From the NCBI RefSeq assembly GCF_000422505.1, contig NZ_KE383867.1:252494-316493 (forward strand): DNA of 64,000 nt, written 5' to 3'. This document shows, piece after piece, positions 57,290 through 60,573 of the stretch. The notes under the pieces were generated by a model. The model worked only from the letters and a program-made list of their open reading frames with translations, had not been told where the DNA came from and did not search any database. Numbering within the stretch: position 1 is the stretch's first letter; every line of letters starts with the position of its first letter. The position numbers were made by a program, and so were the translations under genes. This DNA comes from Paenibacillus pinihumi DSM 23905 = JCM 16419. GTDB lineage: Bacteria; Bacillota; Bacilli; Paenibacillales; Paenibacillaceae.

Positions 57290-57396
57290 GGTGTCAGACT
57301 CCTTTCTGATTGGTATTCGTTATTTTTATTATCGGAAAAAGGGGAATGAATTTAAAGCCGCTTTATAGTCGTCAAGAACCAATTACCAAAAATTGC

Positions 57397-57426
57397 TTGA
57401 CTTTTTTTGAAGCACACCTTTAATAT
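57397..57426 (+). promoter_or_regulatory. Promoter of the rtcB leader
   Basis: TTGACT (57397-57402), 18 bp and TAATAT (57421-57426) put the transcription start near 57433, about 390 nt before rtcB. Confidence 0.65.
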
Positions 57427-57447
57427 AGACGATAACAATAACGAGAG

Positions 57448-57571
57448 GGGGCCGATTTATCATGACAGCATGGAACAATTATCTGAATATAACCGCATAT
57501 GAACCTGTTTTAATCATCGGCCCCGCACGGGCGACATGATAGATTGAGGCCGAAGCCTGCAAGGCGGGGCC
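57448..57571 (+). promoter_or_regulatory. Attenuator-like pair of mutually exclusive helices in the rtcB leader
   Basis: Helix A pairs GGGGCCGAT (57448-57456) with ATCGGCCCC (57516-57524), 9 bp. Helix B pairs GGCCCCGC (57519-57526) with GCGGGGCC (57564-57571), 8 bp, and is followed by TTTGTATTTG. The two share bases 57519-57524, so only one can form at a time, as in transcription attenuators. The B loop carries a small AGGC-CGAA-GCCT hairpin (57547-57558). A short ORF runs through the region. Confidence 0.6.
57462..57539 (+). CDS. Possible 25-residue leader peptide
   Basis: ATG at 57462 follows GAGAGGGGG by about 10 bases and opens a 25-codon frame ending TGA at 57537-57539 (begins MTAWNNYLN, ends GPARAT). 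It starts inside the loop of helix A, and its last codons and stop lie in the strand shared by helices A and B and just after it. A ribosome moving through it would decide which helix forms. It matches no family I know. Whether it is translated is inference. Confidence 0.4.
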   Translation: MTAWNNYLNITAYEPVLIIGPARAT

Positions 57572-57624
57572 TTTGTATTTGCGTATGGAAGGTACGGGAA
57601 TCGATAATCTATGATCTGCGTGAG

Positions 57625-57657
57625 AATGCCATGGACGATGAGTCTGTGGCATTTTTT
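57625..57657 (+). terminator. Terminator-like hairpin in the rtcB leader
   Basis: AATGCCAT (57625-57632) pairs with GTGGCATT (57646-57653; one G-T) and a T run follows. It stands about 160 nt before rtcB, so it would have to be bypassed for rtcB expression. Confidence 0.6.
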
Positions 57658-57661
57658 GTTG

Positions 57662-57703
57662 ATATAAGAAATTGCAGCGCGTGACAGCCAGCGATTCTTA
57701 TAT
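57662..57703 (+). ncRNA. Long stem-loop in the rtcB leader
   Basis: ATATAAGAAATTGC (57662-57675) pairs with GCGATTCTTATAT (57691-57703) as 13 bp with one bulged A; the loop is AGCGCGTGACAGCCA. It directly follows the terminator-like hairpin. It may be a regulatory RNA structure; no known RNA family is recognised. Confidence 0.45.
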
Positions 57704-57819
57704 TTCTGATTCGAAACGTCGCCCGGACTGCCAAGGACAGCTAAGCCGTTTAACCTTGTGCAGATGGCGGGGCTGATTTGCAAGCCATAACGAGAGCAAG
57801 GAAAGGAATTATAAATTAT

Positions 57820-59241
57820 ATGTCTACTTATCTTCATAAAGTTAAACTTCCTGCGGGAGATGTTCAGGTGTATGCAGGGCCTGAGCTGTTCAGTACGCTG
57901 GATTATAAAATATTTGAAATGGCCAATAACAATCTGCAAATTCCGGGTATTCAATTTATGAGCTATACACCGGACGTGCATGTAGGCGTCGGAACCTGCA
58001 TCGGCACAACAGCGGTGTGGAACAACGGGGACGGCTATGTATCGCCATCCATTGTTGGCAGTGACATCGGCTGCGGGATGCGGGTCCATCTGACCAATCT
58101 GCACAGCAGCGATCTGAAGGATGTGAAGCTGCGCCGCAGACTGGTCAAGGCAATCGGGAAGCTGCTGCCGATGGAGTCCCACCAGCGTGGACATTTCTCG
58201 GATATTCGCCTAGAACATGTGGTGAAGAAGGGGCTTCATGGACTGCCGGGCAAATATGTGCCGGACAGCTATACGCCGAAGAAATCGACTTCGCTGACAC
58301 ATGTGGAATCCGGGAAATTTGCATTTGATGAATCTGTGCTGGATGCAATGCCGGAGCAGGCGATTCACCGGGCGCACCGCCAGCTTGGTACACTTGGGGG
58401 CGGCAACCACTTTGTCGAAATTCAGGCCATTGAAATTGCCGAAGAACAGCGCGCTGTCGCTGAAGCATGGGGACTTGTCGACGGACAGATTGCTGTGATG
58501 ATCCATTCCGGCTCGCGCGCATGGGGCGGGGCGGTCAATCAGCTGTGTACGACTGCCATAAAGAAGACAATGGGCAGGCTCGGGCTGGGTACGGCTGATC
58601 CCAAGCTGGTCTTTGCGCCGCTGGATCACCCGGACGGTATGCAGTACGTGAATTTGATGTACTCGGCTCTCAATTATGCTGTTGTGAATCGTCATCTGAT
58701 TGCCTATGCGGTTCGCGAAGCATTTCGTGAGGTAATGGGCAGCGGCTGCGAGCTGCGGACGCTGTACGATCTGATGCACAATTATGCCTGGGAAGAGCAT
58801 CATGACAAAAGAGGATCTGTGTTCGTTCACCGCAAGGGAGCAACCCGGGCTCTGCCGGCAGGACACCCTGACAATCCCAAGCCTTATATGGCTACAGGTC
58901 ATCCGGCGCTTATTCCGGGCTCGATGGGAACAGCCTCTTATCTGATGGTTGGACGGCCGGAAGGCGAAGCCAACTATTACTCCATCTGCCATGGAGCCGG
59001 AAGGATTCGCTCGCGGTCAGCAACGAAGAGGCTGGTTACGGTGGAAGAGTTCGCCGGGGCGTTAAAGGTCGGCACCGATGATGAGATCGTCGTCAATCAG
59101 CTTTCGCTGGAATCGATCATTGACGAATCGCCGCAGGCTTACAAGAACGTGGACGATATTATTGAAAGTGTAACGGGAGCGGGACTGGCGGATGTCGTCG
59201 CCAAATGCAAGCCGCTCGCCGCTGTGAAGGGAGCAAAATAA
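57820..59241 (+). CDS. rtcB: RtcB-family RNA-splicing ligase
   Basis: RtcB joins RNA ends bearing 2',3'-cyclic phosphate or 3'-phosphate to 5'-OH ends, using GTP and manganese. This 473-residue protein has the family metal site Asp82 and Cys85 (GSDIGCGM), the histidine in LGGGNHFVEI, GSRAWG, and the guanylated histidine His391 in CHGAGR. ATG at 57820 is preferred to an in-frame TTG at 57778, since AAAGGA (57802-57807) would then be internal. A 10-base repeat ATAACGAGAG occurs both before this gene (57787) and before the leader ORF (57438). An AAA ATPase gene follows after 3 bp. No Archease, RtcA or RtcR gene is seen. Confidence 0.92.
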   Translation: MSTYLHKVKLPAGDVQVYAGPELFSTLDYKIFEMANNNLQIPGIQFMSYTPDVHVGVGTCIGTTAVWNNGDGYVSPSIVGSDIGCGMRVHLTNLHSSDLKDVKLRRRLVKAIGKLLPMESHQRGHFSDIRLEHVVKKGLHGLPGKYVPDSYTPKKSTSLTHVESGKFAFDESVLDAMPEQAIHRAHRQLGTLGGGNHFVEIQAIEIAEEQRAVAEAWGLVDGQIAVMIHSGSRAWGGAVNQLCTTAIKKTMGRLGLGTADPKLVFAPLDHPDGMQYVNLMYSALNYAVVNRHLIAYAVREAFREVMGSGCELRTLYDLMHNYAWEEHHDKRGSVFVHRKGATRALPAGHPDNPKPYMATGHPALIPGSMGTASYLMVGRPEGEANYYSICHGAGRIRSRSATKRLVTVEEFAGALKVGTDDEIVVNQLSLESIIDESPQAYKNVDDIIESVTGAGLADVVAKCKPLAAVKGAK

Positions 59242-59244
59242 AGT

Positions 59245-60573
59245 TTGGATATTTGGACGAAGATAGAGGATTGGAAAGAACACGGTGAATCCAAGGAGCA
59301 GACCAGTGCTGCTCCTGCAATCTATAGCTATACGGAAGCGGCGAATCAGCGGATTGACAGATATGAAATCTATGCCCAGGTAATCGACGGTATTGCAGAG
59401 GCACTGATGGCTCGGTACGGCATCCGTTATGAGCTGTATTCCAGCGGTGACCCGAATATGGAATACTGGAAGCTGCTTGAAGAGGATGTTCGCCGGCCGG
59501 ACAGCGGAGTTGAGCATGTGGCCAAAATTTTCGACAGGCTGGAGGAGAAGACCTTTGCCTATGAAGATAATCGCACAGAGCCGGAATACAGTGTTCACCG
59601 CTCGGTGCATAACAATGTATTCGCTTATCCGGCCTGGGGCGTTGCACTCGCCCGTGTTCCGGTCTTCCGCGAGCATGGCATCGGCAGCGATGACTATGTA
59701 TTTGCGGTTGACGACGATAAATTACGCGCCTTTCTGGGCAGTGTCAGAGCCAGACAGCGGGAGCAAAACATGCGGCAGGTAACGGTTTTTACCGATACAC
59801 GTCACGGCATCAATAGTGAGCTGGAGCCGATTACAAGGACAATTGGACGGGATGAAGTCATTTTGAAGCCGGAACTGAAGCAGGAGATTTTCCGCTCCCT
59901 CGACCAGTTCTTCGCTGCAGACCGCACATTCTACCGTACCTATAACATTCCATACAAGCGTGGAATTCTGCTCTATGGACAGCCGGGCAACGGAAAGACG
60001 ACGCTTGTCAAGTCGATTGCCGGCAGTGTTCCAGGGCCAGTGGCTTACTGGCAGATTACCGAGCATACGTGCAGCGAGTCGGTGGAGGAAGTTTTCAACG
60101 CCGCTGTGCGTCTGGCGCCGATGGTGCTCGTTATCGAGGATATCGACTCGATGCCTCAGGAGGTCCGCTCCTTCTTCCTGAATACACTGGATGGAGCAAC
60201 TTCGAAGGAAGGAATCTTCCTCATCGGGACGACCAACTATCCGGACAAGATTGACCCGGGCTTGATGAACCGAGCCGGCCGCTTTGACCGCTCCTATGAG
60301 ATCGGACTGCCGGATGAGGAGCTGCGCGTACAATACTTAAAGCTGCGCGGCTTTGATACTTTTGCAGGCTCAGAAGGGGTCAGCGAAGCAGCACAGCTGA
60401 CCAAGGATTTCTCGCTGGCGCAGCTTAGCGAACTGTATGTCAGCGCGGCGCTGGAGTGGCATGAGGGGCAGCCTGTCCACGTTGACAAATTGGTGCGGAG
60501 CATGAAGGAAGAGCTGGATAAAGGGCGCAAGGGAAAATGGATGAAACCCGAGGGCCGTCTTGGATTTTATTGA
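59245..60573 (+). CDS. BCS1-like AAA ATPase linked to rtcB
   Basis: This 442-residue ATPase has an unfamiliar N-terminal half (about 1-215), then one AAA module with Walker A G245-QPGNGKT, Walker B VIEDIDSM (Glu298, Asp299), sensor GTTN and the arginine-finger region [12 protein letters not shown]. The order resembles BCS1/CDC48-like remodelling ATPases, but no membrane helix is present. The TTG start lies 11 bases after AAGGGAG inside the end of rtcB, so the two are tightly coupled and probably work together in RNA repair, for example by remodelling an RNA-protein target. That link is inference from the operon. Confidence 0.8.

Follow-up and report, generated by a model that had tools for sequence, protein, structure and literature searches.

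Transcription attenuation that depends on an upstream ORF (uORF) is already known; the variant described here has an unusual set of targets. The published systems below are compared from excerpts of the papers cited. In Bacillus subtilis, the vmlR leader has a uORF on which stalled ribosomes keep an anti-antiterminator from forming (PMC9226507). We characterized the leader of rtcB in a 64,000-nt stretch of the Paenibacillus pinihumi genome, hereafter the window. As far as the excerpts go, this leader resembles that of vmlR in its predicted parts, namely a uORF, an anti-antiterminator, an antiterminator and an intrinsic terminator, and inducing drugs would be expected to hold ribosomes at initiation (PMC9226507). 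It differs in that the vmlR uORF has three codons in the bulge of SL-1 with a single-stranded Shine-Dalgarno (SD) sequence ahead, whereas the leader ORFs of the present family have 18–53 codons and the uORF's own SD would be the anti-antiterminator strand. The target of vmlR is an ABCF factor, whereas the targets here are RNA repair and RsgA-like genes (PMC9226507). The toiL uORF of E. coli topAI offers a second parallel, a single uORF that responds by stalling to drugs of several ribosome-targeting classes, but toiL is described as acting on translation and Rho-dependent termination, and here the terminator is intrinsic (PMC12121999). Likewise, the uORFC-6-1 motif upstream of hflX in Bacillales combines a covarying RNA with a uORF in front of a gene for stalled-ribosome rescue; in the excerpted account it has a conserved Arg-Leu-Arg peptide and a structure that lies entirely 3′ of the start codon, whereas our leaders have no conserved peptide and hold the SD inside the helix (PMC8632094). 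In the literature examined, again in excerpts, RtcR is the sole published regulator of rtcB, described for E. coli and its near relatives; this sigma-54 activator controls rtcBA of E. coli, and Rtc is tied to ribosome-targeting antibiotics (PMC12606134). RtcR is an activator protein, whereas the control considered here lies in a leader, and a search of the P. pinihumi genome for the RtcR domain (PF06956) gave 0 matches while the E. coli control search was positive, in agreement with the first-pass annotation, which had regarded RtcR as absent. Among the matches listed, the literature on rtcB, RsgA, RlaP, PrfH, YrzI and Paenibacillus attenuation held no account of this leader.

We consider it probable that the rtcB leader is a uORF-dependent, four-segment transcription attenuator with a logic like that of vmlR, which is switched on when ribosomes are held at the start of the leader ORF. 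The segments (Table 1) would be the SD region of the leader ORF (1), the end of the ORF (2) and the 5′ and 3′ arms of the terminator (3 and 4). Without a ribosome, 1:2 (helix A) would form and 3:4 would terminate transcription, leaving the gene off. A ribosome that reaches the stop codon would cover segment 2, which would then refold with segment 1, again giving the off state. If, however, a ribosome were held at the leader start or close to it, segment 1 would be masked, so that 2 could pair with 3, no terminator would form and rtcB would be transcribed. The signal would thus be stalled initiation or early elongation rather than a particular peptide or amino acid, and possible triggers would include ribosome-targeting drugs, ribosomes cut in the decoding center and missing tRNAs. 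We infer that the leader is translated, that the switch has this polarity and signal, and that it benefits the cell. The first-pass annotation had described the region as a leader-peptide attenuator or a riboswitch. The attenuator is supported, in a form that depends on the leader ORF, because helix A covaries, openness of the ORF is selected, the terminator is conserved and a family-level antiterminator is predicted to compete with helix A; the riboswitch and the peptide-specific form are not supported.

Table 1. Features of the rtcB leader and the genes downstream (window positions).
Feature	Position	Strand	Basis or remark
Promoter-like site, TTGACT-18-TAATAT	57397..57426	+	9/12 consensus bases
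Segment 1: SD region of leader ORF and 5′ strand of helix A (proposed anti-antiterminator)	57447..57456	+	
Leader ORF, 25 codons, MTAWNNYLNITAYEPVLIIGPARAT	57462..57539	+	
Conserved RNA motif inside the ORF, taaccgcata here, CAACYGCATA type	57490..57499	+	Alignment of leaders
Segment 2	57514..57524	+	3′ strand of helix A (57516-57524) overlaps proposed antiterminator strand (57514-57522)
Conserved CGG right behind helix A	57528..57530	+	ORF-blind scan, leader alignment
Helix B of the first-pass annotation, 57519-57526 x 57564-57571	57519..57571	+	In window, not in nearest relative
Segment 3: terminator 5′ arm and loop	57625..57641	+	57633-57641 able to pair with 57514-57522
Segment 4: terminator 3′ arm and T-run	57642..57657	+	
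Intergenic repeat-like element, 13-bp stem-loop and second hairpin, probably outside the switch	57662..57766	+	
rtcB, RNA ligase	57820..59241	+	Pfam PF01139, E 1.5e-114
AAA ATPase gene behind rtcB	59245..60573	+	PF00004

The leader is conserved among Paenibacillus relatives, as judged by sequence comparison, and in this the core of the earlier observation holds. The closest named relatives of the window's rtcB are Paenibacillus in 78 of the 80 records kept, the other two being one Cohnella and one filed as Bacillus, and an AAA ATPase homologue lies behind rtcB in 66 of 82 rtcB loci searched, the window's own included. An RtcB N-terminus with enough upstream sequence was obtained from 187 of 201 loci, giving 148 distinct upstream regions. 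These were scanned without regard to ORFs for a helix joining an SD-like strand to one 40–190 nt downstream, and for a CGG within 7 nt of it. The helix was present in 108/148 regions (shuffles, 31/444), and helix A together with the CGG in 106/148, as against 1/444 dinucleotide shuffles. At the 80 named loci, the leader stands directly before rtcB in 58 and about 1 kb higher in 11; ten of the remaining 11 have an ORF and a bulged or altered helix in minimum-energy folds read by eye, and L047 is the sole named locus where no leader could be recognized. Where the leader lies about 1 kb upstream, the intervening gene is RlaP (PF10127) in both loci scanned (L046 and L053), and the gene between leader and rtcB in L062 reads like RlaP; in all three the leader heads an rlaP-rtcB operon, and in L053 KptA is also present behind rtcB. 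The promoter that had been noted ahead of the leader was recovered as a promoter-like site (Table 1). By itself, the promoter scan was within chance (6 sites vs. 3.7 ± 1.9 in shuffles), and TTGAC..TAATAT-like boxes were found again upstream of homologous leaders.

Helix A, the GC-rich pairing 57448-57456 x 57516-57524 of the first-pass annotation, was confirmed at those positions, with −17.9 kcal/mol as a duplex. That annotation had proposed covariation among the rtcB leaders of relatives as a check, and covariation was indeed found. In 34 diverse leaders aligned with MAFFT without structure, both sides had changed in 5 of 10 pairs (15 cells in total), and the covariation score was matched by 0/500 shuffles and 0/6 slid versions of the helix. 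The fraction of paired cells, 93.5%, is an inflated figure, because the scan had selected paired helices. The CAACYGCATA motif lies about 25 nt 5′ of the 3′ strand of helix A and is kept at the RNA level across reading frames.

The 25-codon ORF of the first-pass annotation was found again (Table 1), and its reading frame is kept open across the family. Sixty-three leaders that differ in their helix strands were defined on RNA features only. Read from the first start codon behind the SD, the frame remains open as far as the end of helix A in 60/63 (63/63 if any start is allowed), as compared to 4/63 and 11/63 for the other two frames of these rtcB-class leaders; the ORF has its own SD and is kept open. 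The stop codon falls 7–46 nt past helix A, which is read in each of the three phases (29, 11 and 23 leaders). The encoded peptide varies. In nine groups of close relatives, with the start codon and the last 36 nt excluded, variable columns at codon positions 1, 2 and 3 numbered 24, 40 and 38, and variable codons comprised 13 synonymous and 60 nonsynonymous cases. Since the peptide is not kept while the ORF is kept open, the passage of ribosomes, and not the peptide, seems to matter. One could suppose instead an arrest-peptide or amino-acid-specific attenuator, in which the nascent peptide, with its GPxRAT/GLIRAT end, or a run of codons stalls the ribosome, and ends of the GLIRAT, GPVRAT or GLVTNT kind are indeed common to close relatives. 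However, clades differ in which of the three frames they use for the end region, so that unrelated ends result (SSASSGPVTIF and RPLRA, for example), 60 of the 73 variable codons are nonsynonymous, and the leader peptides listed contain no single-codon run. Given the variable peptide and the use of all three frames across the helix, an attenuator specific to a peptide or amino acid is unsupported, and we regard it as highly improbable; neither a conserved peptide nor a regulatory codon run was found in the leaders compared. The GPxRAT end was dropped as a candidate arrest peptide in view of the three-frame reading and the mostly nonsynonymous variation.

A riboswitch or a protein-binding leader, for example one bound by RtcB itself or by an RNA fragment, with an incidental ORF, would agree with the conserved CAACYGCATA motif and with the strong structure of the leader as a whole, whose 389 nt fold better than dinucleotide shuffles (z −4.05, 0/100). 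The first 159 nt alone fold no better than shuffles (z −1.2, 22/200). Against such a leader are the selected openness of the ORF in the rtcB class, the span of helix A, which ranges from 55 to 131 nt with no common fold beyond the helix in the folds compared, and the Rfam 15 covariance models, which gave 0 matches at the gathering threshold in the window (two matches only in 57300-57900, both at chance level with E 0.46 and 0.86). A riboswitch is unsupported because conservation outside helix A is limited to the CAACYGCATA-like motif and the CGG, and because the frame stays open; no conserved, translation-independent aptamer fold emerged from the comparisons, which showed helix A and short motifs only. 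We therefore consider a riboswitch quite unlikely. The leaders represent a conserved, probably translated attenuator family, for which the window's copy gave no Rfam match at the gathering threshold.

The terminator-like hairpin noted earlier at 57625-57657 was borne out as a stem of 57625-57636 with 57642-57653 followed by a T-run at 57652-57657 (−16.8 kcal/mol), and an intrinsic terminator precedes the gene in 105/106 leaders. Complementarity between the end of the ORF and the 5′ arm and loop of the terminator recurs across the family. In the window, this 2:3 pairing (57514-57522 x 57633-57641) involves 8/9 positions by eye and amounts to −9.7 kcal/mol over wider strands. Judged by duplex energies, own 2:3 pairs were only slightly better than swapped ones (1214/20000 permutations were as good, not significant). 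Ensemble folding was then used on the transcript up to the terminator loop, with the start region masked or free, in 31 rtcB representatives. In free transcripts, 2:3 pairing was at most 0.06 in 29/31, the exceptions being L073 and L180, which pair without masking, and it often appeared once the start was masked. Mean 2:3 pairing with the start masked was 0.396, compared to 0.276 with swapped arms (p 0.003), 0.217 with a shuffled arm (p 0.0001) and 0.185 with a shuffled segment 2 (p 6e-6), p values that are optimistic given that the representatives are related to each other. With masking, 21/31 reached 0.25 and 10/31 stayed below. The conserved competitor of helix A at the family level is, in these folding predictions and their controls, an antiterminator made by the end of the ORF and the terminator 5′ arm when the start is masked, exclusive with both the terminator and the anti-antiterminator. 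The 2:3 pairing is weaker than the terminator stem, so the switch has to be kinetic. The window's own copy of the antiterminator appears weakly supported by the same folding: its 2:3 pairing with the start masked was 0.29, scarcely higher than in its controls (0.14, 0.25 with a shuffled arm and 0.22 with a shuffled segment). Both helix B and an SD-like strand, GAGGCCGA, at 57546-57553 compete with 2:3 in the window. The latter is a second copy of the SD-like strand 3′ of the leader stop codon; the nearest relative, L004, has GAGGCTGA 3′ of its leader stop codon.

The low pairing of the window and of 10/31 representatives, together with the non-significant duplex-energy test, would fit a different signal or polarity, in which helix A only limits re-initiation on the uORF, ribosome-polymerase coupling or the general supply of ribosomes sets termination, and the rtcB class has no 2:3 antiterminator. 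Set against this are the family-level 2:3 pairing above all three controls and its occurrence in 31/31 of the RsgA-type set described below, and we think such an arrangement unlikely in comparison with the four-segment attenuator.

Two further elements of the first-pass annotation stood in part. Helix B had been proposed as the alternative to helix A; it forms a strong duplex in the window (−18.3 kcal/mol), but L004 lacks the partner strand, and helix B was accordingly rejected as a conserved switch. The 13-bp stem-loop at 57662-57703, taken as part of the leader, is present but resembles a dispersed intergenic element: together with about 57704-57766 it is similar to elements that other genomes carry between genes at places unrelated to rtcB. 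A two-hairpin element like that of 57662-57766 is common to six sites of the host family unconnected with rtcB (L114, L115, L116, L134, L138 and L141), and nothing like it was seen by eye at the matching place in L004. We take the element for an insertion that is probably not part of the switch. The idea that it is a repeat of this genome was rejected, as a single copy was found there.

Similar leaders were also found in front of other genes. A pattern search matched 92 of 295 host-family genomes (about 70 in a reversed-pattern control) and 26 of 398 genomes of the host class (about 27 in the control). Given this high background, matches were counted only where the layout and the gene were read; the pattern also misses the window's own leader. 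Thirty leaders make up an RsgA-type set, 14 picked with the RsgA-like next gene in view and 16 by leader sequence alone, and tblastn placed an RsgA-like GTPase downstream of 14/14 gene-picked and 15/16 leader-picked leaders (loci within L204-L250). Five genes scanned by profile match PF03193 and three scanned pass TIGR00157. Segment 2 is TCGGTCTC in 27/30 of these leaders, the terminator 5′ arm carries the exact complement GAGACCGA in 6/30 and a variant in the others, and runs of 5–10 pairs connect the two. In 30/30, an ORF that begins with an ATG 13–19 nt past the start of the SD stays open across segment 2, and the other frames are open in 4/30 and, for the +2 frame, 19/30, so that selection on the ORF is less clear in this class. 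For folding, L317 was added and L315, which gave no terminator, was omitted (n = 31). With the start masked, 31/31 reached 0.25 with a mean 2:3 pairing of 0.452, compared to 0.113 in free transcripts, 0.004 with the stop region masked, and a mean of 0.205 with 55/124 reaching 0.25 in the shuffled-arm control; 6/31 pair 2:3 without masking. A TTGAC-TA..[AC]T promoter occurs in 28/31. The second RsgA gene of P. pinihumi itself (L232) has an unlike leader with a 10-codon ORF (MTINVTVMNA); a later hairpin there, GCACACTT..AGGTGTG, has a T-rich tail.

L236, the one leader-picked member that lacks RsgA, stands in front of a GNAT acetyltransferase (PF00583; L236:390-836), and a leader found by an RNA model, L323, precedes a lone AAA ATPase (L323:796-1833) which shares 71% identity over 344 residues with the AAA ATPase downstream of rtcB in the window. 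The covariance model R1 matched 59/118 host-family genomes at E 0.01 or better and, in P. pinihumi, the window's leader only (62.8 bits). In a class-wide sample, 30/299 genomes matched, 21 of them of the host family, all below E 1e-6, and nine outside it, all weak (best E 1.5e-4). Three of the four outside matches read (L334, L335 and L336) have the same layout, with two terminator-like hairpins and genes for small proteins downstream, and YrzI (PF09501) was confirmed for one L334 gene and two L336 genes. Weak outside-family matches before YrzI-type genes score 27.5–30.5 bits, and L336 has four similar ORFs in a row. The fourth outside match, L337, looks like a coding gene, as do the weak model matches L318, L321 and L326, which were dropped; L316 and L320 show a leader-like layout with a terminator.

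The first-pass annotation had raised the possibility that an RNA-repair ligase senses RNA damage or the state of translation through its own leader. We infer the same, and similar leaders in front of an RsgA paralogue and of rlaP-rtcB operons strengthen this reading. In the excerpts available, RtcB2 and PrfH are reported to protect E. coli from colicin E3, which cuts the decoding center of 16S rRNA (PMC9223846), and Rtc is tied to ribosome-targeting drugs; a ligase of this kind would suit a sensor of ribosomes that have started but are not advancing. It is conceivable, as a tentative extension, that genes for RNA sealing (rlaP, rtcB and its companion AAA ATPase), for 30S quality control (the second RsgA) and for further functions form a ribosome-damage regulon, turned on in concert by ribosomes that can initiate but not elongate, e.g., after cleavage of the decoding center or of tRNAs, and, in view of the weak matches before YrzI-type genes, that the class spans Bacilli. 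A leader shared by RNA-repair and ribosome-assembly genes suggests a common alarm for damaged or blocked ribosomes. If true, a leader that directly reads the state of the ribosome would connect RNA repair with ribosome quality control, no regulator protein being needed, and would suggest when the second RsgA is used.
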